DNA of 41,040 nucleotides from NCBI GenBank assembly GCA_003218135.1, contig QHNQ01000167.1:1-41040 (forward strand), given 5' to 3'. A model generated the notes under the pieces. The model searched no databases. It saw only the letters and a list, made by a program, of their open reading frames with translations, and was not told the DNA's origin. How positions within the stretch are numbered: position 1 is the first letter of the stretch; every line of letters begins with the position of its first letter. The translations under genes were made by a program, and so were the position numbers. This DNA comes from Verrucomicrobiota bacterium. Lineage in GTDB: Bacteria; Verrucomicrobiota; Verrucomicrobiia; Chthoniobacterales; UBA10450. Below, one piece after another: positions 1 through 41,040 of the stretch.

Positions 1-2
1 CA

Positions 3-884: not shown

Positions 885-990
885 ACGCGCGAGCACCGCT
901 TCACTGAATCAGCAACATCCACGCGCCTGACGATTCAGTTCCAGCGGCGTAGGAACTCTCCATCTTTCCGGCTTCGGAGGAGGTCAAATT

Positions 991-2904: not shown

Positions 2905-2966
2905 CAGTGTGGCGGCTCGCGAGCGCTCTCACATCCAGCGTTAATGTGTATGAAGTGACCGAGGAG

Positions 2967-4478: not shown

Positions 4479-4479
4479 A

Positions 4480-5694: not shown

Positions 5695-5697
5695 AGA

Positions 5698-8100: not shown

Positions 8101-8173
8101 ATAGATTCCTTTCCTCTTTCCAAAATTCGCGCGATATGCAATTTTAAGCCGGCCCTAACCACGTGCCTGCAAC

Positions 8174-10261: not shown

Positions 10262-10375
10262 GACTGCCTCCTTGGCATGCGTTCAAGTCTTTTCTTGCTT
10301 GCACCACAGTTGCTCTTAATCGTGAACCTATTGGAAGAACAGGAGCACGGCGGGCGCACAGTGATGGCAGCAGCA

Positions 10376-10861: not shown

Positions 10862-10930
10862 ATGCTCTCCTTGTTATTAGCTCGGAAAACTAATCCGCAG
10901 CACATCACTCAGTATCGAATCCGCATCCAC

Positions 10931-11647: not shown

Positions 11648-11700
11648 CTCGCGCTTCTCTCAATCATGACCACTCCATAAGAATTTGGTCTGATCATTTC

Positions 11701-13104: not shown

Positions 13105-13118
13105 GGATAATCCTTCCT

Positions 13119-14150
13119 TCAAGCAGCCTCTGATTTCTCGGCTGGTTTCTCTACGTGTCCGCCGAATTCATAGCGCATCGCAGATAAGAGCTTATTCACA
13201 AAATCTGCTTCGCCACGCGAGCTGAAGCGCTCGTACAGCGAAGCGGTGAGAACTGGCGCTGGTACCGCCTCGTCAATCGCGGCTTTGATTGTCCAGCGGC
13301 CTTCGCCGGAGTCAGAAACTCGGCCTGCAAACTTCGAGAGGTTTGGATCCTGGAGCAAGGCGGCCGCGGTGAGATCCAGCAGCCACGAAGCGATGACACT
13401 GCCGCGCCGCCACACTTCGGCGACATCCCGCAGATTCAGGTCGTACTGGTAGTGCTCGGGGTCGCGCAACGGTGTAGTCTCAGCGTCAATCTTGCGCTCT
13501 TGCTTTCCAACATTGGCGGAACGCAGAACGCCCAAGCCTTCGGCGTAGGCTGCCATGATTCCGTACTCGATTCCGTTGTGGATCATCTTGACGAAGTGGC
13601 CGGCGCCATTGGGACCGCAGTGCAGATAGCCTTGTTCGGCGGTGCCATCGAGCTTCTCGCGACCGGGCGTGCGCGCTATGTCCCCCATGCCGGGCGCGAG
13701 TGTCGAGAAGATCGGGTCGAGGTGCTGAACCACATCCTTTTCCCCGCCAATCATCATGCAGTAACCGCGTTCCAGACCCCACACACCGCCGCTCGTGCCC
13801 ACGTCCACGTAGTGGATTTTTTTCTGTGCGAGTTCTTGTGCGCGGCGCATGTCGTCAACATAGTAAGAATTTCCGCCGTCAATGAGGATGTCGCCCGCCT
13901 CTAGGTCGGGCAGCAAGTCAGCGATTGTGTTGTCAACGACCGCTGCGGGCACCATCAGCCACACCGCCCGCGGTTTCTCGAGTTTTTTCACCAGGTCCGG
14001 AAGCGAAGCCGCACCCACCGCGTTCTCCTGGACCAATTCGCTTACGGTTTTTGGCGACCTGTCGAACACAACGCAGTCGTGTCCCTTCTTGATCAGCCGT
14101 CGCGCCATATTGGCGCCCATTCTTCCGAGCCCTATCATTCCAAGTTGCAT
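13119..14150 (-). CDS. gnd: 6-phosphogluconate dehydrogenase, short decarboxylating type
   Basis: Oxidatively decarboxylates 6-phosphogluconate to ribulose-5-P. At 343 aa it belongs to the short YqeC/GndA-like branch, not the ~470-aa enterobacterial type. The dinucleotide motif GLGRMG is at residues 7-12. The second strand ends in VVFDRSP, with Asp30 where NADP-specific enzymes have Asn-Arg, suggesting NAD preference (inference). The substrate motif [23 protein letters not shown] and the catalytic [20 protein letters not shown]-like segment are intact. The ATG has GAGGAGG upstream. It precedes zwf by 14 nt. Confidence 0.93.
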
Positions 14151-14261
14151 AAGCGCTCCTCCTCTGAAAATAATCGCAGAATCGTTTGGGTCATTGCGCT
14201 ACCTGGGTGTCACCACGGGGCCACACACCTGCCGCTTGAACTGCAAACCTCCATTACTGAT

Positions 14262-15194
14262 TCACGCAGCTCGGGTCTTACTGCGGGCATTCTCAAAAAT
14301 ATTCACAAATTCCAGGTAACGTCGGGCAATCTCCGCGACAGCTGCATCGCGCGTGATCTGCTTCGCCCGCAAGCTAACGAGCGGCCCCCAGAAACTAGTC
14401 CGGCCCACTGCAAAGCCGATGAAACCCGGCACGGTGGCGGCCGTAGTCAACCACTCGCGCACCTTCTGGTCGTTTTCTCCCCGGCCCAGGATGATGCAAC
14501 TGACTTTGTCGCGTCCACCCCGACGCGCAGCCGCAACCATCTTCTCGCAGTCCTCCCTGCGGTCGAGTCCCTCGATCTTCCAGACGTCCGGCTCAACTTG
14601 CGCATCCTGAAGTTGCTGGATGGTCTCGGCCATCAGCCGGGGGCGAATCTCTAGATCGTAGGCCTTCTTGTCTCCTTTGACCTGATCGAGGTGTGCCTTC
14701 TCCGGTGGTACCAGCAGTTCGAACATGAATCGGCTGCGGCCGTCATTGTGCAGGTATTCAGAGAGCCTTCGTAGACGGGCCGCTTGCCGCCGATTTAGAG
14801 CGCGATCCCCCTCTGGGTTATATCGCACCAGGACCTTGCAGAAAGTTGGGTTGAAAGCCTCGATGTGTTTGGCAAACTCTTCACCGTATTCGAAGTCAAA
14901 CTCCTCCTGGCCGCTCTTCTCGGCCGGGCAGGCACTCGTGTAGGAGTGCGCCGTGGCATCGCGAAGAATGGCAGCTCCGAACTGCTCGTCGACGAGGATG
15001 CCGGCCTTCTGCTTGGGCACGCCAGCTTTGACCGCCGCTTCAAAGCCGTCATATATCACCTGCTTGGTAGCGGCGATCTCAGCCGTCCGCTCTGGGCTGA
15101 GCGTGCCGCTCCACCCGAACATCTTGGTCTGGAATGATCCCCGGTGATCGAACGGCAGGATATATAAAGATTCATTAAAGCCAAGTGCTGTCAT
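14262..15194 (-). CDS. DUF2090-family aldolase-like protein
   Basis: This 310-aa protein matches the stand-alone DUF2090 family, related to the C-terminal domain fused to the IolC kinase in some bacteria and thought to have a TIM-barrel sugar-phosphate aldolase fold. Visible features are [10 protein letters not shown] near residues 13-22, VDEQFGAAI, the strand [21 protein letters not shown], and [16 protein letters not shown] final barrel strand is [11 protein letters not shown], reminiscent of a phosphate-binding loop. Its start overlaps the pgi stop by 4 nt (ATGA), with AAGGAGT upstream. This places it firmly in the glucose array, yet no standard PPP step lacks an enzyme that it would obviously supply. 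Substrate unknown. Confidence 0.75.
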
Positions 15195-16849
15195 AGCGAC
15201 TCCTTGTGTTTGCGGTAGCGACGAATCAAACTGTTGGTTGAACTGTCGTGGTTGAGTGCAGGTTCGAGATTGTTCTCAAGTTCCGGAATAATGCGCTGTG
15301 CCAGAACCTTGCCGAGTTCGACGCCCCACTGATCGAACGAATCAATGTTCCAGAGCACGCCCTGTGTGAAGACAGAGTGCTCGTAGAGCGCCACGAGCTT
15401 GCCCAGTGTGTCCGGCGTGAGCCGTTCAGCCAGGATCGTGTTCGACGGCCGATTGCCTTCGAAGACGCGGTGGGGGACGAGCCAGTCCGGCGTGCCCTCC
15501 GCCTTCACCTGCTCTGGTGTTTTGCCGAACGCAAGTGCCTCAGTCTGAGCGAAAACATTAGCTAGCAACATGTCATGATGCCGGCCAACCGGATTCAGCG
15601 GCTGGGCAAATGCAATGAAGTCGCAAGGGATGAGCCGTGTCCCTTGATGGATCAACTGGTAGAACGAGTGCTGCCCGTTTGTTCCCGGTTCTCCCCAGTA
15701 GATGGGGCCGGTATCGTGGGCGACTATTTCACCGTCAAGTGTGATGTGTTTTCCGTTGCTCTCCATCGTCAACTGCTGCAGATATGCCGGGAAACGCTTC
15801 AGATACTGCTCGTACGGCAAGACCGCGACAGTCTGTGCGCCGAAAAAGTCGTTGTACCAAACGGAGAGCAGGCCCATGAGAACCGGCAGGTTGACCTCGA
15901 AGGGGGTCGTGCGGAAATGCTCGTCCATCTGGTGGAAGCCATCCAGCATGCTGCGGAAATTATCCGGACCGATGGCGACCATGGTCGAAAGGCCGATTGC
16001 CGAATCCATTGAGTAGCGGCCACCGACCCAATCCCAGAATTCGAACATGTTAGCGGTGTCTATACCGAACTTCGCCACTTCCGCGGCATTTGTTGCCACC
16101 GCGACAAAATGTTTTGCCACCGAACTTGCATCGCCTCCCAGTCCCGCGAGTGACCAGGCACGGGCCGTATGGGCGTTCGTCATCGTCTCGAGCGTCGTAA
16201 AAGTTTTCGAAGAGACGACGAACAGGGTTTCCGACGGATCGAGGTCCCGTACCGCTTCAGCGAAGTCGGTTCCATCAATGTTGGAGACGAAGCGAAAACT
16301 CATGTCGCGCTCGGAGTAGTGCTTGAGCGCTTCGTAGGCCATGACCGGCCCGAGATCGGAGCCGCCAATCCCGATGTTGACGACGTTACGAATGCGTTTT
16401 CCGGTATGACCTTTCCACGCCCCGCTCCGCACCCTGTCGGAGAAATTAGCCATCTTGTCGAGCACCGAATGAACCTCGGGCACCACGTCCTTTCCATCAA
16501 CGAGAATCGAAGCCCCTCTAGGGGCGCGCAGGGCCACGTGCAAGACCGCCCGCTTCTCTGTGATATTGATCTTCTCGCCGCCGAACATGGCATCGATTCG
16601 CGCCTGAAGACCGGATTCTTCTGCGAGTTGAAGAAGGAGCCGGAGGGTTTGGTCGATAATGCGGTTCTTGGAGTAATCGAGGTACAAGCCTGCAGCCTCG
16701 ACTGCCATCCGCTCGCCGCGCTTCGGGTCGTCTCCGAAAAGCTGACGCAAATGCAGCTTTGAAACCTTCTTGTAGTGCGACGCGAGTGCGTCCCATGCTG
16801 GAGTTCTGGTGGCTGGCCGGTTTGCCAGGGGTTGAACGTGTGCTGCCAT
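15191..16849 (-). CDS. pgi: Glucose-6-phosphate isomerase
   Basis: Interconverts glucose-6-P and fructose-6-P. The ATG at 16849 has AAAGGAG 7 nt upstream; an ATG two codons earlier (16855) would be too close to it. 552 aa, of the E. coli-like long type. Both family signatures are present: [11 protein letters not shown] with the preceding TGKRIRNVV, and [10 protein letters not shown] near the C terminus. [14 protein letters not shown] and the active-site [12 protein letters not shown] loop are also intact. It follows transaldolase by about 60 nt and overlaps the DUF2090 gene by 4 nt. In this pathway it also allows fructose-6-P to re-enter the oxidative branch as a cycle. Confidence 0.95.
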
Positions 16850-16912
16850 GCTCATGCTCCTTTCGTCTCTACGTGCTTAGTCTGAACGAGCGTCATGCGG
16901 CTTGTTTCCTCT

Positions 16913-18016
16913 TTAACTGACTGCTTTCAGGGTGGCGCTTTTGTCAAGCGACGCACTCTTAGAAGAAATCACGCCCATCAAATCGTTCCACGACTTTACA
17001 AAGGACTCGGCTCCTTCATCCTGAAGCTGCGTGGCCAAAGCATCGACGTCCACGCCTGCTTTGGCGAACTGCCCCAGCACTTCATCGGAGTTCCCGCCGT
17101 CGGGCGGCAGCAACTCGCCCAATTCAGTGTGAGTAGCTAGGGCTTTCAATGTGGCCTCCGGCATGGTGTTCACAGTGAAGGGCGCAGCCAGGGACTTGAT
17201 GTAGAGGATGTCTGAAGCTTTTGGATCTTTGGTTCCCGTGCTGGCCCACAACAGCCGTTGCGGACGACCACCGAGGTTGTAAACGCGCTGCCAGCGCGGC
17301 GAGCTGAGAAGAGCGCTGGCTGCTTTGTAGGTGCGTTTAGCGATGGCGATGCCAAGTTGGTTGCGTAGTTCTTCAGGCACCTTGCTGGCAACAGCGGAAT
17401 CCCAGCGGCTGACAAACACCGATGCCACGGAACCGACATTGGGATTCAGGCCTGCCTCGATGCGCCTCTCAATGCCGCGCAAGAATGCTTCGGCCGCGGC
17501 CAAGTAGTGCTCACGGGAGAACAACAGAGTGACGTTAATTGGCACTCCGGCGAAGATCGCTTCTTCGATTGCGGGGACTCCTTGCTTGGTACCAGGAATC
17601 TTGATTAACAGGTTGGGACGATTCGCCCGGGCAAACAGTTCTTTGGCTGCGGCGAGCGTGCTGGCCGTGTCGTACGCAAGAAGTGGAGATACTTCCAGCG
17701 AAACCCATCCGTCCACTCCATTCGTCCTTTCATGAATTGGTCGAAAGAGATCTGCGGCCCGAGTGAGATCCTCCATGGCTAGCTCGAAGAAGAGCGCTTC
17801 GCCCGACTTGCCTTTGCTTAACTTCTCGCTGATCGCCGAGTCATACGTCGCGCTATTCTTGATGGCGTGGTCGAAGATCGTCGGATTCGAAGTGAGTCCG
17901 GTGACCGACAGGTCGTCAATGTATTGTTTAAGCGTACCGCTGTCCAGCAGTTCGCGGGTGATGTTATCTAGCCAGAGACTCTGGCCCTCGTCGTGTAGCA
18001 GTCGTGTTGCTTTCAT
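16913..18016 (-). CDS. tal: Transaldolase
   Basis: Transfers the dihydroxyacetone unit between sedoheptulose-7-P and glyceraldehyde-3-P through a lysine Schiff base. The true start is the ATG at 18016, preceded by GAGGTG and overlapping the upstream stop by 4 nt; the frame extends further only through the neighbouring gene. It is 367 aa, the long actinobacterial/cyanobacterial type. The Schiff-base lysine is Lys139 in LLIKIPGT. Other family segments are SLWLDNITRELL, GLTSNPTIF and INVTLLFSREHY. In many relatives tal and pgi are fused; here they are separate neighbours in the same order. Confidence 0.93.
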   Translation of the reverse strand: MKATRLLHDEGQSLWLDNITRELLDSGTLKQYIDDLSVTGLTSNPTIFDHAIKNSATYDSAISEKLSKGKSGEALFFELAMEDLTRAADLFRPIHERTNGVDGWVSLEVSPLLAYDTASTLAAAKELFARANRPNLLIKIPGTKQGVPAIEEAIFAGVPINVTLLFSREHYLAAAEAFLRGIERRIEAGLNPNVGSVASVFVSRWDSAVASKVPEELRNQLGIAIAKRTYKAASALLSSPRWQRVYNLGGRPQRLLWASTGTKDPKASDILYIKSLAAPFTVNTMPEATLKALATHTELGELLPPDGGNSDEVLGQFAKAGVDVDALATQLQDEGAESFVKSWNDLMGVISSKSASLDKSATLKAVS

Positions 18017-18672
18017 CGCGTCACCTCGTGGGTTGTAAGTTCGCACTCGTGAGCCGGCGAGCTTTCCTGTGAATTGGACGTGAGCACATGGTTGGTATCG
18101 TTCCACAGCCGGATCGCGGGCTGGGACGGGCTGTTCTCGTAACTCAGTGCGCTCAGGCTCGCCGTGCCCAGCACGAGAGATCTGCCGTTAATTGGCTCAA
18201 TCCCGATCCAGCGTGTGGCCAACACTCGGAGAAAATGTCCGCTGGAAAAAAGCAGAACATCTCCAGCCACCGCGCGCACGCGGCTCACTACGCGATCAGC
18301 CCGCGCAGCGACTTGCTGCGGCGATTCGCCGCCCGGGCAGCCGTCGCGGAACAACTGCCAGTCCGGACGTTCTCGCAGGATGTCAACCGTGAGGCGGCCT
18401 TCGTACTCGCCATAATCCCATTCGACCAAGTCTCGGCCAGTTTCAGCTACGGATCCGAACCCGGCCAGCGCACATGTCCGCATGGCGCGCTGCAAGGGGC
18501 TGGTGAACACTTTCGCAAACTTGAGTCCGCTCAGGCGTTCTCCCAGCCGTCGCGCATTGCGCTCCCCGCGGTCAGTGAGCGGCAGATCAGTAAGACCGGT
18601 GTGTTGACCGGTGACTGTCCAAGCCGTTTCGCCGTGTCGGGCCAGGTAGACGATAGGGAAGCTGTTGCTCAT
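18013..18672 (-). CDS. Histidine phosphatase family (phosphoglycerate-mutase-like) protein
   Basis: 219 aa. The N-terminal YLARHGETAW carries the phosphorylated His in the RHG motif, and a second His is in LLFSSGHFLRVLATRW. Other family features are GLTDLPLTDRGERNARRLGERL, FTSPLQRAMRTC, and the proton-donor Glu region LVEWDYGEYEG. Members are cofactor-independent phosphatases or mutases acting on phospho-sugars or phosphoglycerate. Its place between glucokinase (3 nt gap) and transaldolase (4-nt overlap) suggests a phospho-sugar substrate, perhaps relieving sugar-phosphate build-up. GpmB-like mutase activity cannot be excluded. The start has AAGGAG upstream. Confidence 0.8.
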   Translation of the reverse strand: MSNSFPIVYLARHGETAWTVTGQHTGLTDLPLTDRGERNARRLGERLSGLKFAKVFTSPLQRAMRTCALAGFGSVAETGRDLVEWDYGEYEGRLTVDILRERPDWQLFRDGCPGGESPQQVAARADRVVSRVRAVAGDVLLFSSGHFLRVLATRWIGIEPINGRSLVLGTASLSALSYENSPSQPAIRLWNDTNHVLTSNSQESSPAHECELTTHEVTR

Positions 18673-18675
18673 GTA

Positions 18676-19674
18676 CTACTCCTTATGGTTTTTCAGGTTC
18701 TCAAGTCCGTAGGTCGCAGCTCCTACCAACGCCGCGCGTGTCGTGATGACGTGAACGGGCATGCGTGCCATCAGGTCTTTGAAGCGGCCTTTTCTTGTAA
18801 ACGTCTGCATGAACTGCGATTCCTGCAGCGCGCTCAAAAGGTGCAGGGCGATGCCGCCAGCCATGTAGATACCGCCTGTCGCAAGAACCTTCAGCGCCAG
18901 ATTGCCCGCTTCGCTGGCGAGAATCGAAACCAACATCTCGACGGTCGCCCGGCACAATTCACTTGGATTGTGCGGGTCAACGGCGGCATTCACGATTGCT
19001 TTCGTATGATCTTTGGCGGACGCGATCGATTGAGCAACTTCGGGCCTTTCCGTTATTTTCTCTTCATCGCGAAGATATTCGTAAATGTTGGGAACGCCGA
19101 TTCCGGAACAGACACGCTCGACTCCGACGTGACCGAAACGCGGCAGCAGGTACTCAAGCAAACGAATTTGCCGCTCCTCTGTCGGCGCGAAATCACAGTG
19201 CCCACCCTCGGAGCTGTGCGCCACATACTGTGAGTCATCCCAGGTGAGAAAGGATTCACCCAGACCCGTCCCCGGCGCGATGATTGCGATGGGGCCGTTC
19301 AGAACTGCCTCTCCTTTATTTAGTGTAAGCAGGTCGAGTGCACGCAAGACGGGCACTGCCCGCGCCACCGCTTCCAGGTCGTTCATAAGGTGGACGGACT
19401 TGAGATTCAAGTCCCTGGCGAGCGAGCTTTCATCCATCACCCAGGGCAAGTTGGTTGTTTTCACGTGCCCGTCGATCACTGGACCGGCGACATCAAACGA
19501 GGCAACGTCGACCGACATTTTTGCCCGCGAGAGAAACTCTGCGACCATGGCCTGCAGGCTGGGATAGTCGGCGCTATGAACTTCGGTCTCAGCCAGTGGT
19601 GCGTGCGGCCCCGATTTGCTCGAGTAGATCGCCAAGTCTGTTTTTGTACCGCCGATGTCGCCTGCAATCAGCAT
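18676..19674 (-). CDS. glk: Glucokinase
   Basis: Phosphorylates intracellular glucose with ATP, committing it to the array. At 332 aa it is an E. coli Glk-type protein (about 320 aa), not a ROK-type one. Visible are the ATP-binding GDIGGTKTDLAIYS at the N terminus, VASFDVAGPV, LMNDLEAVARAVP with the catalytic Asp, APGTGLGESFL and SSEGGHCDFAPTEE. The C terminus has GGIYMAGGIALH. The ATG has AGGAG 6 nt upstream. It lies 14 nt downstream of the sugar transporter, which fits delivery of unphosphorylated sugar. Confidence 0.93.
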   Translation of the reverse strand: MLIAGDIGGTKTDLAIYSSKSGPHAPLAETEVHSADYPSLQAMVAEFLSRAKMSVDVASFDVAGPVIDGHVKTTNLPWVMDESSLARDLNLKSVHLMNDLEAVARAVPVLRALDLLTLNKGEAVLNGPIAIIAPGTGLGESFLTWDDSQYVAHSSEGGHCDFAPTEERQIRLLEYLLPRFGHVGVERVCSGIGVPNIYEYLRDEEKITERPEVAQSIASAKDHTKAIVNAAVDPHNPSELCRATVEMLVSILASEAGNLALKVLATGGIYMAGGIALHLLSALQESQFMQTFTRKGRFKDLMARMPVHVITTRAALVGAATYGLENLKNHKE

Positions 19675-19688
19675 CGCTAACTCCTAAG

Positions 19689-21011
19689 TCAGTTGTAAGC
19701 GCTGACGTAACGTTCACTGTTTGGTTTCGATCCGTTCAATGCATAGAACAAGATGTACAAGTAGCAGATCACGGGCACAAAGAATGCGTGGTGAATGCCG
19801 ATATGATCCGCAATCGCCCCTTGAATAAGCGGCAGAATTGCACCACCCACGATAGCCATATTCAGAATGCCGGATGCATTTCCCGTCAGAGGCCCAAGCT
19901 CGGCCACTCCAAGACTAAAGATGCTCGGGAACACGATGGAGTTGAAGAATCCAACTGCAAGAATGCTCCACATGGCGACGTGCCCGCTGGTTAACATGGA
20001 AATGACGACGAGGGCTGCCGTGCAGAGCGCACATATGGCCAGGAGGTGCCCGGTTTTAATCCTGCGCAAAACCGCCGCTCCGAGAAAGCGCCCTACCATG
20101 GCGCCGCCCCAGTAGAACGAGACGTAACCTGCCGCAGTCTTTGCGGACAAACCCGCAATGTCCGCTTGGCCGAAATAGTTCACCAGGAAGCTTCCGATGG
20201 AGACTTCTGCGCCCACGTACGCGAAGATTCCGAGTGCGCCGAAGATCAGATTTGGATGTCTCCAGACTGAATCTCTGACCTTTTCTCCTGGACGGTATTC
20301 CACATGTTGGATCTTCGGCAGCTTGGACGCCGCGATCAGAACGGCGAGCAGCAACAACGCGACACCGATTACGATGTATGGCATCTTCACCGAGGCAGCC
20401 TCCTGCACGCGGTACAGATGCAGCGCCTGCGGCGAAAGCTGGCGTAACTCTTCAATCGCGAGCGGCACCGCATTGAGGATCAGCAGCCCTCCCAGTTTTG
20501 GAGCGATCGTGGTGCCGAGCGAGTTAAAGGCTTGCGTCAGATCCAACCGGCTCGAGGCCGTTGCCGGTTTGCCGAGAACCACCACGTACGGGTTTGCCGC
20601 TACCTGCAGACCGGTGATGCCCGCTGCAAGAACAATGAGCGCCCCCAGAAACAGCGGGAACGACGCAAAGGACGCGGCCGGCAGAAACAAAAACGCACCC
20701 ACGGCCATGCTCAGCAAGCCAGCCACCATGGTCTTCTGATAACCAATCGCGTTCACGATCTTCGACCATGGAATCGAAAACAAAAAATACGCCGAGAAGA
20801 ACGCAAACTGGATCAGCATCACTCGCGCGTAACTGAGTTCAAAGATCGACTTCAGGTGCGGCACCAGAATGTCGTTCAGAGAAGTGATAAAACCCCACAT
20901 GAAAAACAATGTGGTGACGATAGCGAGTGGACGTGTGTAGTTTTCAGCAATCGTAACCGGCGAAGCATTTTGTATTGCCGATGAGCTCGTTGTCATTTCT
21001 GGACTCGCCAT
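19689..21011 (-). CDS. FHS-family sugar/proton symporter (FucP/GluP-like MFS)
   Basis: About 440 aa from the ATG at 21011, which has GAGGT upstream. A longer frame to 21326 exists, but that part is out-of-frame sequence of the adjacent porin remnant and has no membrane character. Twelve hydrophobic segments are apparent, beginning with PLAIVTTLFFMWGFITSLND, the FHS hallmark. Others include SAYFLFSIPWSKIV, GLQVAANPYV and LTQAFNSLGTTIAPKLGG. Family members import glucose, galactose or fucose with protons. With glucokinase 14 nt downstream, glucose is the likely substrate. It is the first intact gene of the array. Confidence 0.9.
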   Translation of the reverse strand: MASPEMTTSSSAIQNASPVTIAENYTRPLAIVTTLFFMWGFITSLNDILVPHLKSIFELSYARVMLIQFAFFSAYFLFSIPWSKIVNAIGYQKTMVAGLLSMAVGAFLFLPAASFASFPLFLGALIVLAAGITGLQVAANPYVVVLGKPATASSRLDLTQAFNSLGTTIAPKLGGLLILNAVPLAIEELRQLSPQALHLYRVQEAASVKMPYIVIGVALLLLAVLIAASKLPKIQHVEYRPGEKVRDSVWRHPNLIFGALGIFAYVGAEVSIGSFLVNYFGQADIAGLSAKTAAGYVSFYWGGAMVGRFLGAAVLRRIKTGHLLAICALCTAALVVISMLTSGHVAMWSILAVGFFNSIVFPSIFSLGVAELGPLTGNASGILNMAIVGGAILPLIQGAIADHIGIHHAFFVPVICYLYILFYALNGSKPNSERYVSAYN

Positions 21012-21028
21012 TTCTCTGACCTCTGGTT

Positions 21029-21420
21029 CTACCACCACGTTTCCGCTTGCACTCCATACGTAAGGCCGTCCGTCCGATTCTGGAAGGGAATCCCGCCCAC
21101 TAATCCGCGCAGTCCATCGGACCAATTCGCGTAAGTCAAGAATGCGCGGAGCACTGGGCGGCTGAAGAACTGGCGGCCAGCGCCAATTTGAGGCGCGATG
21201 GTGAATTTGCGCAGCCAGCCGTCGAATTGGCCAGTGCTGCTGTGAGTATGGTCGAAGCCTCCCTCGAACGCCAACGACAGATACTTGGTAAAGAAGACCT
21301 CCGGGCGCCCGCCGAACGATACCCACTGATCCCAGCCGTGTACCGGATTACCGTCCCGAGTCCGCTGATAGATAAAGATCGGCATTAAGGCGAACTTGTC
21401 ATGCAGGTGCCATCGCAGCC
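21029..21420 (-). pseudogene. C-terminal remnant of a LamB/maltoporin-type carbohydrate porin
   Basis: The minus strand encodes the last ~125 residues of an outer-membrane carbohydrate porin. Amphipathic beta-strands alternate in WVSFGGRPEVFFTKYLSLAF, EGGFDHTHSS, GWLRKFTIAPQIGAG and RPVLRAFLTYANW, and the chain ends in GLTYGVQAETWW, an aromatic terminus typical of LamB. Family members are about 400-450 aa with a signal peptide. Here the frame upstream loses porin character near 21400 and runs into LLQALDLGLRLLQEI-type sequence, so roughly the first two thirds are deleted. It lies 17 nt upstream of the sugar transporter and was probably the first gene of the array. Confidence 0.8.
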
Positions 21421-32732: not shown

Positions 32733-33164
32733 TCAAGCATACTGCTTGGCATAGAGGCCGAACTTTTTCATGCGAGAAAGGAGAGTCGTGCGGTTCATTC
32801 CCAGGCGTGCGGCAGCACCGTCGGTACCACCCACACGTCCCTTACATGCAGTCAGCGCTCGAATGATCTCATCGCGCTGCTTTCTCTCGTATTCGTCAGC
32901 GATGCTGGTTTTGTCGTTTGGCGAATTTGTTCTTTCTCCGGCGACTTGATCAACTTCATGCTGATTGGCGTTCGGGAACTCGATAGTATTGGTCCTTTCC
33001 AGTTCTCGGAGCGGCGCCTCAAGCGATTTGCCGCGAGTGATTATCACCGCCCGCTCAATAAAGTTTTCCAGCTCACGGATGTTGCCAGGCCAGTCCCAAG
33101 CCGTAAGTCCCCTCATAGCCGTTGGAGAGATGGTTTTAAATTGGAGCATTAATCGCTTTGGCAA
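32733..33164 (-). pseudogene. C-terminal fragment of a sigma54-dependent activator
   Basis: Only the last part of the AAA+ domain (FKTISPTAMRGL, WDWPGNIRELENFIERAVII) and the Fis-type helix-turn-helix (ALTACKGRVGGTDGAAARLG then MNRTTLLSRMKKFGL) remain. Complete activators have the GAFTGA-containing ATPase and usually a receiver or GAF domain, about 450 aa; here all of that is missing. Family sequence starts at the very point (33140-33164) where the oppositely oriented RND pump fragment begins, and a TGA precedes the frame. A DNA-binding fragment could still be made from a TTG start, but it could not activate sigma54. Confidence 0.8.
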
Positions 33165-33547
33165 TCATGGGCACACCCTTTGGGTTCATGGCATTTCTTG
33201 GAGTAGCCAGCCTGATTGGAGTCATCGTAAGCCATGTCATCGTCCTTTTCGACTTCATTGAGGAGATGCACGAAAAGGGCGAGCCGCTGGAACGCGCTCT
33301 TCCGGATGCCGGCATTGAGCGCATTCGACCCGTGATGATCACCGTGGCCGCAACCATCCTGGCTCTGTTTCCTCTCGCCCTCGAAGGGGGCCCGCTCTGG
33401 AAACCCCTGTGCTATGCCCAGATCGGCGGACTCGCTGTGGCAACCTTCATTACCTTGCTCCTGGTCCCAGTCTTCTACTCGATTTTCGTACTCGATCTGA
33501 AATGGATCAAATGGGAAACGACAGAGGACCGACAGCGGCTCTCCTGA
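33140..33547 (+). pseudogene. C-terminal fragment of an RND efflux pump (AcrB/HAE1 or CzcA type)
   Basis: The frame begins right after a TAA and reads the last ~135 residues of an RND inner-membrane transporter: GTPFGFMAFLGVASLIGVIV, SHVIVLFDFIEEM, then IRPVMITVAATILALFPLAL, GGPLWKPLCYAQIGGLAVAT and LLVPVFYSIFVLDLKWI. RND pumps are about 1,040 aa, so about 87% is missing, including all proton-relay and porter domains of the N-terminal half. It abuts the sigma54-activator fragment head to head. A relation to the lost pump of the adaptor locus at 22.4 kb is possible but cannot be shown. Confidence 0.85.
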
Positions 33548-35273: not shown

Positions 35274-36134
35274 TCAACTCGGGTAAGCCAACGCTGACTT
35301 CGCCCGACGTAGGTTGAATGATATTGGATAATGATCCGATGCCTGGATGAGACTGTGTACCTGCCCGCTGTCTGTTTGAATTGGACCCCGCACGAATGCC
35401 CAGTCGATTGAGCGACCCGCTTCGAAGAGACGCCGCGATGGCGTGGTAGGCGTGGGTGCCGCCTTTACGGCATTGCGGAACTCTGCGCGTGCCAGCGACT
35501 CCGCCGCGGCATTCTTCGAGACATTCAAATTCAGGTCTCCAGCCATCACCGCAAAGCAGTGCGGATCATAGCGTGCCGCATCAGATAAAACCTCGTCCAG
35601 TTGCGACAGACGCAACTCATCATTCGCGCGGCTTTCCAAATGAAGGTTATAGGTTATGAGCGTGCTTCCTGCGACATTAATCTCGGTGACCAGCGCGATT
35701 CGTCCTCCGAGTCTTTCTTGAAAAGGCTTAATGCGAGGCAAAAACCAACGGGGCTGCCAAAAATTCGACTGTTTTCGAAAACGGATCATACGCGGATTCG
35801 AAATAGGCCATCGTGAGAGAGTAGCCTGTCCGTGGTACGCGGGCGAAGCCCTGGACCCCTGGGTTAACTCCTCAAACTCTCGCCCGAACGCATAGTTCAT
35901 CTGCAACTTCCGGGCGATCTCTTCAGCGATGTTGAGGCGGTGAGTCCGGCGGGCATTAATGTCCACTTCCTGGAGGATCAGAACATCCGCGTTCATATCT
36001 TTCAGGAAATCTATGATCGCTGGCAGACGCAAGCCCCGGTCGATGTTCCAATCGACGATGCGCAAGGAACTGGGCGGCCACATTACCCATCGGAAAGGCG
36101 CGAAATTGCCGGTAATGATCTCTGGTATCGCCAC
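35274..36134 (-). CDS. Endonuclease/exonuclease/phosphatase (EEP) family protein
   Basis: 286 aa from a GTG at 36134, 2 nt after the previous stop; an internal ATG at 36083 is an alternative. EEP landmarks are LRIVDWNIDRG (metal Asn), DVLILQEVDIN (catalytic Glu), TYNLHLESR, VMAGDLNLN (Asp/Asn) and the C-terminal QASDHYPISF (catalytic Asp-His). The family includes Mg-dependent nucleases, sphingomyelinases, inositol phosphatases and other phosphodiesterases. No signal peptide is evident. As the last gene of an operon with a CDP-alcohol phosphotransferase, a phosphodiester lipid or a head-group phosphate is a likelier substrate than DNA (inference). Confidence 0.85.
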   Translation of the reverse strand: MAIPEIITGNFAPFRWVMWPPSSLRIVDWNIDRGLRLPAIIDFLKDMNADVLILQEVDINARRTHRLNIAEEIARKLQMNYAFGREFEELTQGSRASPAYHGQATLSRWPISNPRMIRFRKQSNFWQPRWFLPRIKPFQERLGGRIALVTEINVAGSTLITYNLHLESRANDELRLSQLDEVLSDAARYDPHCFAVMAGDLNLNVSKNAAAESLARAEFRNAVKAAPTPTTPSRRLFEAGRSIDWAFVRGPIQTDSGQVHSLIQASDHYPISFNLRRAKSALAYPS

Positions 36135-36136
36135 AT

Positions 36137-36880
36137 TCAGACTGTAGATGCCATAGCGAGATGCGGAAATATGTTCTGCTGGGCAAATGTCAGGTCGAAC
36201 GGATCATCGATTTCCGCCCACGGCAAACCGGCGGTTGTGGTGAATCCTATCTGCACACCCTCGTCGGCCAGTTCCTGTACAGCAGCATTGAAGAACTCGT
36301 TAACACGGCCCGCCACAATCAGGTTGTGAATCTTGCGAAAGAATTGCTCCTGGATGGCGTGGTCAAACACCGTGATGCCGATGTAGGTCGCGCTAAATTC
36401 TTTTTTCGATATTTTCTTGCTCATTCGGATCACGCGTCCATTCGAGATGATCACCTTCATGGTCTCATCCCGCCAGGAATGGTCTACGATCATAGATATG
36501 GGCGCATCCGCCCGCAACGCCGAATCAAGAATGTCGGGTTTCAAGACTACATCGGCGTTAAGGCAGACAAAACTGTCGCCACGCAACCAGTCGCGCGCCA
36601 GCCATAAAGAATAGATGTTGTTGGTTTCCGCGAATGCCGGGTTTTGAATGAAGTGGATGTTCAGCCTGCAGCGATCGAATCGCGATCTCGCGTGGCGGAT
36701 GATCTGCTGTTTCTCGTACCCCACTACGATGGCGATTTGGTCAATTCCTGCCATAGACAAGGCTTCTATTTGGTGGTCAAGAATGGTCTTGTCGTCGACC
36801 TGAATCAGACATTTTGGACGCTGGCCGTGGACGGCCCGGATCCGTGTGCCCTGCCCCGCAGCTAAGATCACCGCTTTCAT
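36137..36880 (-). CDS. Nucleotidyltransferase of the phosphocholine-cytidylyltransferase-like family
   Basis: 247 aa. The N-terminal signature ILAAGQGTRI ... RPKCLIQVDDKTILDHQI, with the catalytic Lys after RP, is intact. VCLNADVVL carries the metal-binding Asp, and the C-terminal WAEIDDPFDL is the second metal site. The family transfers NMP from CTP, UTP or another NTP to a phosphorylated small molecule; LicC-like members use phosphocholine and archaeal relatives use inositol-1-P. It sits 8 nt downstream of the CDP-alcohol phosphotransferase gene, so it probably makes that enzyme's CDP-activated donor. Substrate identity is unknown. Confidence 0.85.
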   Translation of the reverse strand: MKAVILAAGQGTRIRAVHGQRPKCLIQVDDKTILDHQIEALSMAGIDQIAIVVGYEKQQIIRHARSRFDRCRLNIHFIQNPAFAETNNIYSLWLARDWLRGDSFVCLNADVVLKPDILDSALRADAPISMIVDHSWRDETMKVIISNGRVIRMSKKISKKEFSATYIGITVFDHAIQEQFFRKIHNLIVAGRVNEFFNAAVQELADEGVQIGFTTTAGLPWAEIDDPFDLTFAQQNIFPHLAMASTV

Positions 36881-36888
36881 GATACCTC

Positions 36889-38130
36889 CTACACCGCCTT
36901 GATTCCTGCCATGCCCGTTGCCGGCTGCTTGAAGAATCGATGGTTGAAATAGAGCGCCAGAGTCCAGATGAGATGGCTGCCCAGTGTTGACAGATAAAAG
37001 AGCACCGGCAGCTCTCCAAGCAGGGTGAACAGGACTACGTAGATGATGAGCACGCCTCTTTTCTGGAAGGCCTGGAGATGTCGCACCATTTTTGAAATCC
37101 AGTTCGACGAATCATTCTCAAGTAATCGGTAGAAGCGACCCAGGTATTCGTTCGGCCGATCAGGAGTTGTGGCGCGCTTGCGCTGGAGAGAAGTAATAAT
37201 GACGGACAACAGAGTGCCTGTCAGTAGTACCGCGCCGATCCAGAGTTCGAAGCTGCCGTACTGCCGATAGAGCCCAACTGTGATTCCTCCGAACAGGAGC
37301 AGATAGCTCAAACCGTCAGCAAAACCTTCCAGCCAGGTCCCAAATGGTGAGTCGGCAAACTTGATACGGGCCAACATCCCGTCCATCTCGTCGAACAGGC
37401 CGGCGATGTAGAAGAGCAACGCCCCAGCGACATACGCCCAGTAAAATCCGCCCGCGAACGCGATCGCGGACAAGATCGATACGGCTACACCTCCGAAGGT
37501 CACGGCATTGGGCGTGATGCCCGTGTGCGAAAGCCACTTTACAAAGGGACGGCACAGGCGCCGGTTGAACGAGGTATGAATTCCATCTAGAACTTTTCCC
37601 GAGTGCACGACCAGGAACTGTTCCGCGGCCGCTGCAGTTTCTGGTGAGATGACCGCGATGCCCTCTACATTCCGGTGGGGGAGGGCCGTAGAGATCTCAC
37701 CGCGAGTCACCTCGTTTGTTGTAACGAAAGCTGGCCTGCTCCAGTCGACTGAATCCATGCCCACTAAAGGCAGGCGAACCAGCGACTGTTTGTTGGTGAC
37801 CCAGTTCCAAGGCAACCACATGAATTGGGTGTCGAAGCCATCCAGCACACTTACCCAACTCGACCGAGCGCGCGGATCGAAGTTCTTGACTCGGAGCAGT
37901 CTGACGGTGCCTGGTCCCCTGAGCAAAGGGGGCTGCATGTAAATGTCCGCAAGTTCAGTTGGTGCGTTTTCCGGCCAGACAAGCAGGACATCATCGGCGC
38001 CAGCGCGCACCGCCGTTGCCAGAGTTCTCAAGAGCAAAGGAACGCCGCAGACGGGCCGCATGAGCACTTTCGCATCCGTGTAGCAGTCCGCTACAGTTGC
38101 GAATTCTGGAACCACTACAACGAATTGCAT
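36889..38130 (-). CDS. CDP-alcohol phosphotransferase with N-terminal nucleotidyltransferase-like domain
   Basis: 413 aa from the ATG at 38130 (AAGGA 9 nt upstream), overlapping the previous gene by 16 nt; the frame further upstream is out-of-frame sequence of that gene. Residues 1 to about 170 resemble a nucleotidyltransferase fold (CGVPLLLRTLATAVRAGADD) but lack the GxGTR loop, so catalysis there is doubtful. Residues about 185-400 are a CDP-OH phosphotransferase with several membrane helices. The motif is D247-x2-D250-G-x2-A-R255-x8-G264-x3-E268-x3-D272: the third Asp is Glu. Archaeal inositol-phosphate cytidylyltransferase/DIPP synthase has the same domain order. It likely transfers a phospho-alcohol to or from a CDP donor in the inner membrane. 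Confidence 0.82.
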   Translation of the reverse strand: MQFVVVVPEFATVADCYTDAKVLMRPVCGVPLLLRTLATAVRAGADDVLLVWPENAPTELADIYMQPPLLRGPGTVRLLRVKNFDPRARSSWVSVLDGFDTQFMWLPWNWVTNKQSLVRLPLVGMDSVDWSRPAFVTTNEVTRGEISTALPHRNVEGIAVISPETAAAAEQFLVVHSGKVLDGIHTSFNRRLCRPFVKWLSHTGITPNAVTFGGVAVSILSAIAFAGGFYWAYVAGALLFYIAGLFDEMDGMLARIKFADSPFGTWLEGFADGLSYLLLFGGITVGLYRQYGSFELWIGAVLLTGTLLSVIITSLQRKRATTPDRPNEYLGRFYRLLENDSSNWISKMVRHLQAFQKRGVLIIYVVLFTLLGELPVLFYLSTLGSHLIWTLALYFNHRFFKQPATGMAGIKAV

Positions 38131-39116
38131 AAGGCCAATTCCTTCCCACCCGATTCGAGCGTCCGGTCGATTGATTTGTTCTGCTCCTTGGGGCGTTGTG
38201 ATCTCCAGGCCAGCCAGGCAAGACCTGCTGCGGCCCACAGAAGATCCCGCGTGCGCCGAGTCAGCGCCAGTGTCAGACCGAAGGCTGGTTGTAGTCCGAT
38301 TGCCATGAAAGCTGACATAGCTCCGCCTTCGTCGGCGCCCAGTCGCGCGGGAACCCATCCCGTCGCCATCTTGACCGCACGCGTAAAGCCCTCAATGGCA
38401 AGCACCGCTATAACGTGAATTGGCAGCCGTAACGCCCACAGGACCACCACCACTTCCGAAGCCATGAGGAACTGGCATGCCACGTCGATCCAGAACATGC
38501 GAGACACAACGGCGGGGTGTTGGACGCGATAGTCGCGCAGCGAGCCTTCAATCTTCTCGGCGCGTTTGAGCCACGCTGGGGACCTTCTCAAGCCTTGCGC
38601 GACGCTCGACAGGATTGGTTTGCGGCGGGTAATCAGCAGTAATGCCAACGCAAATATTGCGAAGAGTGCGGCCGCCGAAGTCAGATATCCACCATGCGCC
38701 ACCAGCAAGGCAATGCTGATACAGCCAGCCATTCCCAGCAGCGCAGACGTGAGCCAGTACACTCCGCTATCGAGAAACGTGGCTGTGATCGTAGGCGCGA
38801 CAGCGGTTCCCAGGAGTTGGATTTTCATCGGCTCCGACAACACCGGGCCCAGCACCGTGAGATAGCCCATGGACTGTGATGCCAAGCGGATTCCGACCAG
38901 ATCAGTGAGGGCAACCGTGATTCCTTCGGCTTTGAGCGCCGTCGACCAGGCAACTGTCTGTAGCAAGAGACGACACAGGCTGAGTGCAATCAGAATTGGC
39001 AACGCAAATCGCAACGCCTTGAGTTGCTGCAAAATCGCGGAGAGCCCCATGTGCTGGATAACCCACGCGAACAGCGCCGCACCGACCAACGCTGCGAGTA
39101 AGGCGGCTTTCCTCAT
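38115..39116 (-). CDS. UPF0104/HpnL-like integral membrane protein
   Basis: 333 aa with about eight hydrophobic helices, of the lysylphosphatidylglycerol-synthase TM-region family (UPF0104), which includes HpnL and MprF flippase-like domains. Typical segments are MGYLTVLGPVLSEPMKIQLL, FLDSGVYWLTSALLGMAG and FTRAVKMATGWVPARLGADE then GGAMSAFMAIGL, the last being the most conserved family region. Such proteins are thought to move lipids or lipid-linked intermediates across the inner membrane. It overlaps the LolA-like stop by 4 nt and the CDP-alcohol phosphotransferase start by 16 nt, so it is translationally embedded in the operon. Confidence 0.82.
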   Translation of the reverse strand: MRKAALLAALVGAALFAWVIQHMGLSAILQQLKALRFALPILIALSLCRLLLQTVAWSTALKAEGITVALTDLVGIRLASQSMGYLTVLGPVLSEPMKIQLLGTAVAPTITATFLDSGVYWLTSALLGMAGCISIALLVAHGGYLTSAAALFAIFALALLLITRRKPILSSVAQGLRRSPAWLKRAEKIEGSLRDYRVQHPAVVSRMFWIDVACQFLMASEVVVVLWALRLPIHVIAVLAIEGFTRAVKMATGWVPARLGADEGGAMSAFMAIGLQPAFGLTLALTRRTRDLLWAAAGLAWLAWRSQRPKEQNKSIDRTLESGGKELALCNSL

Positions 39117-39856
39117 TGGGACAGCCTCGCTTCGTGATTGCGATCATCGGCTGCATGGTCGGGTGGATTCAGCGAGTATTCAGAATTCTCGATCGTCAAT
39201 TCCGCCGGGCCAAAGATACGAATCTCACTCACGGAATGAGTCGAGGCTGCGAACCAGAAGGGGCCAACTTTTTCATAGGTGTGGACGAAGTGGACGTTGC
39301 GAGTCCAGAAGGACGGATTTCGCGCCGGACGCCCCTCAATCCGCACGATGGAGTAATCGGTGGCGTCGACCCAGATCTTGCCGGCGATCAGGTACTTGTT
39401 CTCGGCTTTCGGAATTAACGACAACACGTAGGCTGAACGCCCATCGATAATGTCTTGCCCCGCGCCCTGAAAGTCGTAGTTTGCGGGGATGATGCGGGTG
39501 CTGCTTCGAGTATCGCGGCGGGATGCCTCGGCCTCTTCCTTCAACATCTTGTACAACACGTGCTTGCGGATCCAGCGTGACCCTTCTTCGGACAGGGTCG
39601 CGAATTCTTTCACTCCGTCCTTGGTGCAGGTTATCCGCACCAACATCTCCGCTCGACGCTGTTTGTTGAAGGCAACATAATGACGGGTCGCGGTGTAGCC
39701 TTGGAGTTGAGTCTGGCGCCGGGCATCCAGTTGAATCATCCTTGCGACCACTTCGTCCGCGGTGGGAAGGACCTCGTTTGTCTGTGCGATCCCGAGCCTG
39801 GCTGTCAGGACCACAATCGAGAGGGTCAAAATCACGGAGTTCATCGCCATCTTCAT
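39113..39856 (-). CDS. LolA-like outer-membrane lipoprotein-sorting family protein
   Basis: 247 aa with a signal peptide (residues 1-24, ending GIAQ), therefore periplasmic. The mature part reads as an open beta-barrel like LolA/LolB: YTATRHYVAFNKQRRAEMLV, RIIPANYDFQGAG, YVLSLIPKAENKYLIAGKIW, VDATDYSIVRIEG and the C-terminal FGPAELTIENSEYSL. This branch is usually annotated as an outer-membrane lipoprotein-sorting protein but has no proven cargo; carrying a lipid-linked molecule to the outer membrane fits the operon. It lies 2 nt after the receptor gene stop. Confidence 0.72.
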   Translation of the reverse strand: MKMAMNSVILTLSIVVLTARLGIAQTNEVLPTADEVVARMIQLDARRQTQLQGYTATRHYVAFNKQRRAEMLVRITCTKDGVKEFATLSEEGSRWIRKHVLYKMLKEEAEASRRDTRSSTRIIPANYDFQGAGQDIIDGRSAYVLSLIPKAENKYLIAGKIWVDATDYSIVRIEGRPARNPSFWTRNVHFVHTYEKVGPFWFAASTHSVSEIRIFGPAELTIENSEYSLNPPDHAADDRNHEARLSQ

Positions 39857-39858
39857 AT

Positions 39859-41040
39859 CTAAAACTCCAAAACGAGCTTTGCGTGAAAGGTGCGGCCAGG
39901 TGGGTTGAAGAACTGGCCGAAACGGTTGCTGTCGATATCGTTTTGCACGTCGCGGGGATTGGAGCGATTGAAAATGTTGAACACTCCAAAGCCAACTCGT
40001 GCACGTTGCTCCCGAATGGGTAGCCGGATTTCCCGCAGAACCTGGAGGTCGGTCGAAATGAACCTGGGGAATCGTCGCTCATTGCGGAGTCCGACAAATT
40101 GGCGCGATTCGTTCACTACCGAGTACGGAAAACCGGTGTGCACATCTAACACTGGCGACACGGTCAATTTCCAGGGCGCGGCAATTTCGCCCCACGCCAG
40201 GAATCGGTTTGGGGCGTCGAAGGATAGGCGCCCAACTTGATTGGGTTGGATAACCGCTTGCGGATTATTTCCAAAGAATTGGTTGAAATCGTTCAGGTCC
40301 CCGTGAGCCTGAGAGCGGACATAGGAAGCGTTCAATGTATTGTGGCCTACTCGATACCGTGTCGTAACCTGAAACTCGCGATAAAAATCGCGCCCGCTGT
40401 TGGCAAGTGAGAGGAATCCCGATTCTCCGAGGGTCAGGGGCGTCAGCACAAAGCCGTGCACCGTGTTGCGCTGCTGGTACGAGACGCGCACCAGCAAGTT
40501 GTCGAGGAGCTGACGATCGAGCTCGAGATTCCACACCTCGCTGCGCGGATTTCGAAGCCCACCCGAGATGACGTTGGCGTAGGTGGTCGAGCTAAGAACC
40601 TGACGGAGAGGATCGAGTCCGATCACAGTGCGCCCGGGCAGATTGGGAAAGGCAGGAATATTCAGTGGGATGCGATCGTAGAAAAGGCCAGCGCCGCCTT
40701 TGAGCAGTGTTTTCCCATCGCCGGTCAGGGCCAACACAAAACCAGCGCGCGGCGCTGTGTTGATCGAGTCCGTGACCGAATCGCGGTCGAATCGCAGTCC
40801 CAGGTCAAAGGTGAGCCGGCCAGAGAGCGTCCACTTATCCCCGACAAACCATGCGGTCTCGTTCTGATCGATCGAGAAACTGGAGGCGGGGCCGAACTGA
40901 ATTCGCTGTAGGGGAAATCCCGCAACACCGACAATGTCTACGGGCAGAAACTGTTCGCGGCCATCGTAAGAGCTGTGGGCGAAACTGATTCCAGCTTTCA
41001 GTTCGTGCGATCCGTGGAATTGATGGGGACGCAATTGAAA
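39859..41040 (-). CDS. TonB-dependent receptor, C-terminal beta-barrel (partial at window edge)
   Basis: The frame is open to the last base of the window, so the signal peptide, carboxypeptidase-like domain and plug lie outside. The visible 393 residues are repeated amphipathic beta-strands: HELKAGISFAHSSYDG, LTFDLGLRFDRDSV, PRAGFVLALTGDGKTLLKGG, VWNLELDRQLLDNLLVRVSY, YRVGHNTLNASYVRSQAH, and VGFGVFNIFNRSNPRDVQND. The chain ends with FHAKLVLEF, the aromatic terminus recognised by the barrel-assembly machinery. It resembles the Oar-like receptors abundant in Acidobacteria. Being first in the operon, it may import or secrete the operon's product or substrate. Confidence 0.88.
   Translation of the reverse strand, partial: FQLRPHQFHGSHELKAGISFAHSSYDGREQFLPVDIVGVAGFPLQRIQFGPASSFSIDQNETAWFVGDKWTLSGRLTFDLGLRFDRDSVTDSINTAPRAGFVLALTGDGKTLLKGGAGLFYDRIPLNIPAFPNLPGRTVIGLDPLRQVLSSTTYANVISGGLRNPRSEVWNLELDRQLLDNLLVRVSYQQRNTVHGFVLTPLTLGESGFLSLANSGRDFYREFQVTTRYRVGHNTLNASYVRSQAHGDLNDFNQFFGNNPQAVIQPNQVGRLSFDAPNRFLAWGEIAAPWKLTVSPVLDVHTGFPYSVVNESRQFVGLRNERRFPRFISTDLQVLREIRLPIREQRARVGFGVFNIFNRSNPRDVQNDIDSNRFGQFFNPPGRTFHAKLVLEF

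Follow-up and report, generated by a model that had tools for sequence, protein, structure and literature searches.

Introduction

The route by which lipids other than lipopolysaccharide and lipoproteins travel to the outer membrane is largely open. Acidobacteria, in which the system described below is found, are major soil bacteria. Membrane proteins of the COG0392/UPF0104 group have been proposed as flippases by their homology to MprF (PMC5898192, in excerpt). TonB-dependent receptors are known chiefly as importers, and the receptor Oar is required for export of a protein, PopC, in Myxococcus xanthus (PMC6434023, in excerpt). Here we describe a six-gene operon that joins relatives of such proteins to putative enzymes of head-group activation and transfer. 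It lies at the end of the window, the 41,040-base stretch that we analysed, which is the entire contig QHNQ01000167.1 (C62) of a 2.75-Mb draft genome assigned to Verrucomicrobiota. Computation gave its gene set and conservation, two operon types, a gene fusion in one of them, a LolA-like predicted fold, modular divergence between the types, and one mixed copy.

Results

The operon comprises six open reading frames on the minus strand, joined in order by 2 nt, a 4-nt overlap, a 16-nt overlap, 8 nt and 2 nt. The first, at 39859-41040, encodes a TonB-dependent receptor, probably Oar-type (PF25183, 69.6 bits; PF00593, 27.2 bits); because the contig stops at 41040 only the last 393 residues are present and any preceding gene is unseen. 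It is followed by genes for a LolA-fold protein, a proposed periplasmic carrier (39113-39856); a UPF0104/LPG_synthase_TM membrane protein, HpnL-like and a homolog of the MprF flippase (38115-39116); a CDP-alcohol phosphotransferase with a degenerate nucleotidyltransferase-like N-terminal domain (36889-38130, with its ATG at 38130); a LicC-like nucleotidyltransferase, assigned by sequence profiles, with an intact G-x-G-T-R..PK signature (36137-36880); and an EEP (Exo_endo_phos) phosphohydrolase (35274-36134). All except the LolA-like gene exceed their Pfam cut-offs. A promoter and terminator scan did not stand clear of chance, giving two promoter-like sites against 3.6 expected and ten terminator-like sites against 6.4 expected (sd 2.9).

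The preliminary description of this DNA had proposed the same six genes with the same spacings, and that operon is confirmed in the window and recurs elsewhere more than by chance. Two of its assignments need correction. The receptor belongs to the family named and is a fragment, not a complete gene. What had been called a nucleotidyltransferase-like/CDP-alcohol phosphotransferase fusion does contain the phosphotransferase; its N-terminal part has lost the G-x-G-x-R signature (by eye) and looks non-catalytic. The LolA-like carrier has a LolA-like predicted fold, with a Pfam match below cut-off.

We found at least 24 operon loci in 18 genomes, and the named genomes among them are all Acidobacteriota; the genome searches were samples from a collection with about half of the GTDB 232 species, and 24 is a lower bound. 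All six genes are detectable in 19 of the 24 loci, in two gene orders that we call type A and type B, although the receptor is cut or damaged in five of these 19 (the window, L020, L024, L154 and L163) and the EEP match is partial in L154. Contig ends cut three of the remaining five loci (L023, L119 and L162), and L185 and L187 are five-gene variants. When named genomes were scanned with the phosphotransferase alignment and the best 80 of at least 361 relatives (at least 586 stretches) were kept, the complete set was found in five of those 80 loci: Edaphobacter modestus DSM 18101 (L019), an Acidobacteriota draft genome (L020), and Acidobacteriaceae draft genomes (L021, L022 and L024). A sixth, L023, has the final two operon genes at a contig end.

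Of 397 genomes of the E. modestus order, 204 had a relative at E<=1e-40 in a profile search with the LolA-like protein; the matches form two score groups that the LolA tree also splits into operon-type and weaker relatives (support 99). Twenty loci were fetched: all 12 scoring at least 238 bits sit in the operon, and none of the eight scoring at most 232 bits (L164-L171) shows another operon gene, so a LolA-like gene by itself does not mark the operon. Among the additional copies are L117 in E. modestus and L118 and L119 in a Silvibacterium draft genome. Searching 298 genomes of that order for EEP gave matches at E<=1e-25 in ten and added L185, L187 and a lone EEP gene, L186, which we do not count. 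No seventh gene family occurs in more than four of the 22 loci whose open frames were compared, some with short flanks; the unit therefore seems to be these six genes. The preliminary description had pointed to conserved co-occurrence in Acidobacteriota genomes as a check, and would have had to yield had the homologs rarely been neighbours; with the operon at 12 of 12 newly fetched loci holding an operon-type LolA gene, the six genes stand as one conserved operon, though a rare one.

The operon is rare and patchy, and not general in Acidobacteriota. Operon-type LolA occurs in 12 of the 397 genomes of the order (14 counting the two five-gene genomes from the same sample), in two of 62 genomes of the genus (E. 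modestus itself and G785), and in one of 396 genomes drawn from the phylum, which is the search centre G388 itself. Genomes can hold several copies: two in E. modestus, and three each in G389 and G785. Types A and B occur together in G389 (L021 with L118 and L119) and G785 (L152 with L153 and L154), with misbinning possible for G389, a draft. Of 72,556 plasmid records searched, 15 matched, none over 80% of the query.

Several loci have features of their own. The E. modestus copies L019 and L117, both type A, lie about 76 kb apart on contig NZ_SHKW01000002.1 (492,591 bases), with a DDE transposase gene at L019:3622-4734. In L154, a type-B copy whose genome holds two more, the receptor frame is damaged, the fusion frame is broken and EEP is matched in part. 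The lone EEP relative at L186:6789-7673 (plus strand), with median identities of 52% to type A and 51% to type B and no other operon gene in 16 kb, is perhaps a leftover. Three radical SAM genes lie downstream of the type-A operon at L020:6467-12630, a family not common to the other copies; their identity as hopanoid genes is unsupported, as the NCBIfam matches shown all fall below cut-off, the best being of heme and peptide-maturase kinds, and one of the three matches HpnH at 33.9 against a cut-off of 225. Near the type-A operon of L185, at 11602-13146 (minus strand), is an MCE-family gene (TIGR00996 and MlaD matches, both below cut-off) with a possible auxiliary lipoprotein gene (by eye).

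The two types differ in both gene order and sequence. Type A (the window, L019, L117, L020, L118, L119, L152, L155, L156, L157 and L185) runs receptor, LolA, flippase-like protein, phosphotransferase, nucleotidyltransferase, EEP; type B (L021, L022, L023, L024, L153, L154, L158-L163 and the cassette of L187) runs receptor, LolA, nucleotidyltransferase, flippase-like protein, phosphotransferase, EEP. LolA is absent in L185 and L187. A single open frame encodes the flippase-like protein and phosphotransferase in ten of the 11 type-B copies holding both; they are apart in L163, the fused frame of L154 breaks off early, and the cut loci L023 and L162 fall outside the 11. The two genes are separate in all nine type-A loci checked and in the window.

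Divergence between the types is modular. Median identities between A and B, computed without L020, L185 and L187, reach 53.6% (receptor), 42.3% (LolA) and 52.1% (EEP), against 24.6% (flippase-like protein), 26.9% (phosphotransferase) and 26.3% (nucleotidyltransferase). This contrast is not one of rate, because within-type medians are alike for both halves, at 59-72% in type A and 47-59% in type B. The six-gene set, as its sequences indicate, is divided into a constant half (receptor, LolA and EEP) and an apparently exchanged half, or cassette (nucleotidyltransferase, flippase-like protein and phosphotransferase), a division hidden from the preliminary description.

One copy, L187, is mixed. 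Its receptor and EEP have median identities of 61.6% and 63.7% to type A versus 53.8% and 54.8% to type B, while its nucleotidyltransferase (28.1% versus 56.7%), flippase-like protein (22.6% versus 48.4%) and phosphotransferase (27.4% versus 50.7%) are nearer type B. In the trees, the L187 receptor groups as sister to the receptor of L185, a type-A copy (support 100/99.6), and for EEP, too, L185 is the copy closest to L187 (94/91.8). A tree holding the L187 receptor with B receptors was rejected (p-AU 0.0036; 0.0011 without L022 and L024), and the control holding B alone together was not (p-AU 0.41); the groups for these tests were named after the matches had been seen. L187 looks like a type-A-like receptor and EEP joined to a type-B cassette, its head-group half differing as if swapped in a cassette exchange.

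The nucleotidyltransferases of the two types fall in different subfamilies. A profile of nine type-A sequences matches LicC (1jyk) at 72.9 bits over residues 1-111, the N-terminal half, and PntC (6pd1) at 54.5 bits over 2-243, the full length, with other sugar nucleotidyltransferases scoring between; the type-A enzyme has both the signature and the best match of a LicC/PntC-type protein. For the type-B enzyme, full-length alignments score 108 bits with 4jd0 and 100 and 98 bits with solved inositol-1-phosphate cytidylyltransferases, and because of this likeness the type-B head group is probably inositol phosphate. Inositol-phosphate synthase proved uninformative as a marker of type B, as 14 of 15 genomes with the operon have it and so do all eight without one in the LolA search, 22 of 23 in total. 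A phosphonolipid product of the LicC/PntC-like enzyme is also unlikely, as phosphoenolpyruvate mutase exceeded its cut-off in none of 15 genomes (14 have weaker superfamily matches).

The window phosphotransferase belongs to the class I CDP-alcohol phosphotransferase family (PF01066, 35.5 bits against a cut-off of 22) and keeps seven of the eight conserved residues of the signature D-x2-D-G-x2-A-R-x8-G-x3-D-x3-D; we file it as a variant-signature homolog. Glu replaces the third Asp in 12 of the 13 distinct motif strings from operons, of both types, and in a further locus, L026; L160 has Asp, as do all 77 other distinct motif strings fitting the pattern (the window copy is listed under L006, and the count covers neither L185 nor L187). 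The nearest solved relatives by sequence are Af2299, IPCT-DIPPS and phosphatidylinositol-phosphate synthases, and Foldseek with a model of modest confidence (pLDDT 66.6) retrieves the same fold in Af2299 (2e-6) and PIPS (4e-5). The N-terminal domain still has some of the shape of a nucleotidyltransferase, matching YngB and IPCT weakly (E 0.2-0.7), and the signature is absent from its residues 1-175 (by eye), unlike the active fused domain of IPCT-DIPPS; this part of the fusion is probably non-enzymatic.

Two related arrangements were seen outside the operon. L026:2422-5384, on a short contig, holds a type-B-like cassette of nucleotidyltransferase, HpnL-like and phosphotransferase genes, the last with the Glu, together with a second HpnL-like gene; the available sequence has no receptor or LolA match. 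In L018 (G341:C107), at 731-3092 (minus strand) of a 4.6-kb contig, a phosphotransferase is fused to an intact-looking nucleotidyltransferase domain and adjoins an inositol monophosphatase-like gene (by eye).

The flippase-like protein is a member of UPF0104/LPG_synthase_TM (PF03706, 49.8 against 33.4 bits) and not of HpnL proper (TIGR03476, 75.4 against 195.65). The window LolA-like protein has a signal-like N-terminal helix (by eye) and matches PF17131 (LolA_like) at 21 bits against a cut-off of 30 (E 0.00028). Its AlphaFold2 model (pLDDT 82.4) has a LolA-like fold: Foldseek places LolA3 of Porphyromonas gingivalis first (5.6e-8), followed among others by 3bk5, other LolA proteins, LolB, RseB and the mycobacterial lipoprotein LprG. 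Stand-alone LolA relatives adjoin an HpnI-like hopanoid glycosyltransferase gene in five of eight loci (L164, L166, L168, L169 and L171); of four such genes tested, three narrowly pass the NCBI HpnI cut-off and one fails. This adjacency links the carrier family, not the operon itself, to lipid glycosylation, and suggests a lipid-carrying LolA family in Acidobacteria that is independent of the operon.

Full-length relatives of the receptor have roughly 816-870 residues and a CarboxypepD_reg N-terminal domain. PF13620 and the barrel are found in relatives L019 and L185, the window receptor itself being cut; the L019 barrel is below cut-off for PF00593 and above it for PF25183, and a plug match in L185 scores 21.5, short of its cut-off of 23.9. 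Across seven genomes searched, identity to the window receptor is 55-73% for receptors of intact operons and 28-44% for the rest; the one at 44%, on G785:C21, has no other operon gene nearby, and for the damaged L154 receptor the match covers a third of the query at 40%. The EEP protein belongs to its family (PF03372, 57.6 against 24.5 bits) and has no signal-like N-terminus (by eye). Its motifs QE, HLE, GD.N and SDH, which we take to be catalytic-type motifs of the family, are invariant in all seven sequences.

From these families we lean, with moderate confidence, towards a two-part system in which an inner-membrane cassette makes and flips a phosphodiester-headed lipid and the common half delivers it to the outer membrane; the enzyme activities, the lipid nature of the product, the direction of transport and the head groups are what we infer. 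The nucleotidyltransferase would activate a phospho-alcohol with CTP; as it would supply a CDP-alcohol, a small CDP-linked head group is the probable donor, and a lipid alcohol the probable acceptor, onto which the phosphotransferase would move the head group. The UPF0104 protein would then flip the product, the LolA-fold protein would carry it across the periplasm, and the dedicated Oar-type receptor would place it in the outer membrane or move it through. The cytosolic EEP would act as a phosphatase or phosphodiesterase on an intermediate, and may remove phosphate from the product, a step that prokaryotic inositol-lipid pathways need after the phosphotransferase reaction. Since EEP diverges with the constant half, its substrate is suggested to be common to both types. 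The flippase-phosphotransferase fusion, the LolA-fold protein and the dedicated receptor together point to a product that is a lipid and moves on from the inner membrane. The preliminary description had proposed activation, condensation, flipping and carriage in this order, which remains sensible, with the fusion in ten of 11 type-B copies, for steps whose enzymology is conditional.

A more far-reaching version is possible but rather unlikely: cassettes for differently headed phospholipids, choline- or amino-alcohol-like in type A and inositol-like in type B, with a hopanoid or another non-glycerol lipid as a possible base, might be exchanged over one constant LolA/Oar-type surface route. If such a modular supply of outer-membrane lipid were true, lipid export through a TonB-dependent receptor would be energised. 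Both types seem to be present at once in two of the 18 genomes.

Several observations weigh against the lipid pathway, beginning with the phosphotransferase. An Asp of its catalytic signature is replaced by Glu, and about six long membrane helices can be counted by eye in its model. Six helices are linked to soluble acceptors, lipid-acceptor enzymes having three to four more, and neither Af2299 nor DIPP synthase, the solved proteins nearest to the phosphotransferase, processes lipids (PMC4634129, in excerpt). It is speculation that the fused flippase domain might supply a lipid site. These features would fit a soluble osmolyte, such as a relative of di-inositol-phosphate, with the envelope genes unrelated; the preliminary description had named an osmolyte as one product, and both the kinship with Af2299 and IPCT-DIPPS and the six-helix look of the model favour it. 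Because flippase-like and LolA-fold genes travel with the operon, such a product is unlikely, and with receptor, LolA-fold, flippase-like and synthesis genes together in 19 of 24 loci and across both cassette types we regard it as the least probable reading of all.

The export direction is likewise challenged by the receptor, as TonB-dependent receptors usually import. The operon might instead serve uptake and reuse: the receptor would import an environmental phosphodiester or lipid, the LolA-fold protein would receive it, and EEP, nucleotidyltransferase and phosphotransferase would break down and rebuild the head group inside. Divergence of EEP with the receptor and LolA, not with the cassette, and the patchy, in some genomes multi-copy, occurrence of the operon suit this reading. 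A UPF0104 flippase-like protein fused to the phosphotransferase points instead to a product leaving the cytosol, and EEP, by eye, has no signal-like N-terminus. Outward movement by such a receptor has precedent, because Oar is needed for protein export in M. xanthus (PMC6434023). On balance we think uptake unlikely and retain delivery to the outer membrane.

The carrier raises doubts of its own: its Foldseek TM-scores are low (0.22-0.49 among the first 39 rows, 0.49 being the best), and L185 and L187 have no operon-type LolA gene, though a LolA relative lies upstream. The fold matches, which include LolA, LolB and LolA3, would also accommodate a true lipoprotein carrier in an operon that modifies or sorts a lipoprotein. 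No further gene, hence no lipoprotein gene, is conserved in the operon, stand-alone LolA relatives often adjoin an HpnI-like gene, and LprG, of the same fold superfamily, carries lipids; lipoprotein handling is therefore very improbable, if a shade less so than the osmolyte.

A glycan is a further candidate for the product, a phospho-alcohol being put on a polyprenol-linked sugar that the UPF0104 protein flips, as proposed for AglD-type proteins, with LolA and the receptor serving surface glycan assembly. Archaeal UPF0104 proteins go with glycosylation genes (PMC5898192), and LicC feeds head groups to glycans, as PntC is proposed to do (PMC6697681, in excerpt); the conserved set, in turn, contains no glycosyltransferase or LicD-type gene, and we rate glycan decoration as improbable beside the lipid pathway.

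Exchange of the cassette, finally, is less clear from EEP than from the receptor. The first EEP tree puts three B rows (L022, L023 and L024) with A, with several supports low, and the EEP origin of L187 is not firm: p-AU was 0.024 with all B rows and 0.092 without L022-L024, and 0.076 for B alone. As proof of exchange the EEP tree test is weakened by these controls and leaves the matter unsettled.

The window DNA itself probably does not belong to the genome in which it is binned. Its transketolase is 67-68% identical to copies in the Acidobacteriaceae G387 and G390 versus 41-49% to those of six genomes sampled from the family, order, class and phylum of the bin; other acidobacterial transketolases are also distant (48-51% for second copies and G389, 31% for G388), and another transketolase of the bin is at 42-43%. 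Tetranucleotide profiles of the window correlate at 0.91-0.94 with seven acidobacterial operon loci versus 0.86-0.88 with stretches of five other bin contigs, which correlate at 0.94-0.96 among themselves in the pairs listed. A phosphotransferase match at E<=1e-10 occurs in only two of 387 genomes of the assigned phylum, one being the bin itself, which fits misbinning. By these sequence comparisons contig C62 is probably misbinned acidobacterial DNA, and horizontal transfer might also account for its origin.

Elsewhere in the window, 4480-21326 (minus strand) holds a phosphoketolase/pentose-phosphate cluster (acetate kinase, phosphoketolase, transketolase, 6-phosphogluconolactonase, zwf, gnd-type, pgi, transaldolase, glucokinase and a GluP-type transporter). 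Two possible gene remnants read by eye as a C-terminal RND-pump piece (33158-33547, plus strand) and the C-terminus of a sigma-54 regulator (32733-33164, minus strand). Another contig of the same bin, C154 (L012), has four CDP-alcohol phosphotransferase matches in 1-16619, two with degenerate nucleotidyltransferase-like N-termini; with, by eye, a serine-palmitoyltransferase-kind aminotransferase, a GNAT-like gene, an SDR and an IPCT-like nucleotidyltransferase, it looks like a sphingolipid head-group locus.

Discussion

In this operon a head-group cassette and a flippase-like protein form one unit with a LolA-fold protein and a dedicated TonB-dependent receptor. Each part is a known family or a divergent relative of one; what we rate as new is the joining of head-group activation, transfer and flippase to a carrier and receptor, with exchangeable cassettes. 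None of the titles and abstract starts listed in our searches of an open-access collection describes the six-gene set; subscription papers and preprints lay outside these searches. The natural exchange of cassettes is a built-in test of which half sets the product. The genes also offer a handle on the acidobacterial envelope, and a named strain, E. modestus DSM 18101, carries two type-A copies.

A close likeness is to Af2299 and IPCT-DIPPS of Archaeoglobus fulgidus, in which a cytidylyltransferase-like domain is fused to a CDP-alcohol phosphotransferase: these are the best sequence and fold matches of the window protein, and the type-B nucleotidyltransferase is itself IPCT-like. In the operon, by contrast, the signature is gone from the fused domain, a separate gene encodes an intact nucleotidyltransferase, and the third motif Asp is Glu. 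The Af2299/IPCT-DIPPS systems are not known to include a flippase, LolA-fold or receptor partner. The LicC and PntC pathways resemble type A, whose nucleotidyltransferase is nearest LicC over its N-terminal half and aligns over its full length with PntC; they differ in that the conserved set of the operon is without a kinase or LicD-type gene, and phosphoenolpyruvate mutase was over cut-off in none of the 15 genomes.

A likeness to hopanoid HpnL and HpnI is seen in the HpnL match of the flippase-like gene and in the HpnI-like neighbors of stand-alone LolA relatives, but the HpnL match lies below cut-off and no further hopanoid gene is in the conserved set. The receptor relatives resemble M. 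xanthus Oar in domain architecture (PMC6434023); Oar moves the protein PopC, whereas the proposed cargo here is a lipid. MprF, a lysyl-phosphatidylglycerol synthase and flippase, offers the parallel of a head-group enzyme with a UPF0104-type flippase in one protein or operon (PMC5898192), but the enzyme of the operon is a CDP-alcohol phosphotransferase, not an aminoacyl-tRNA transferase, and to the pair an outer-membrane half has been added.

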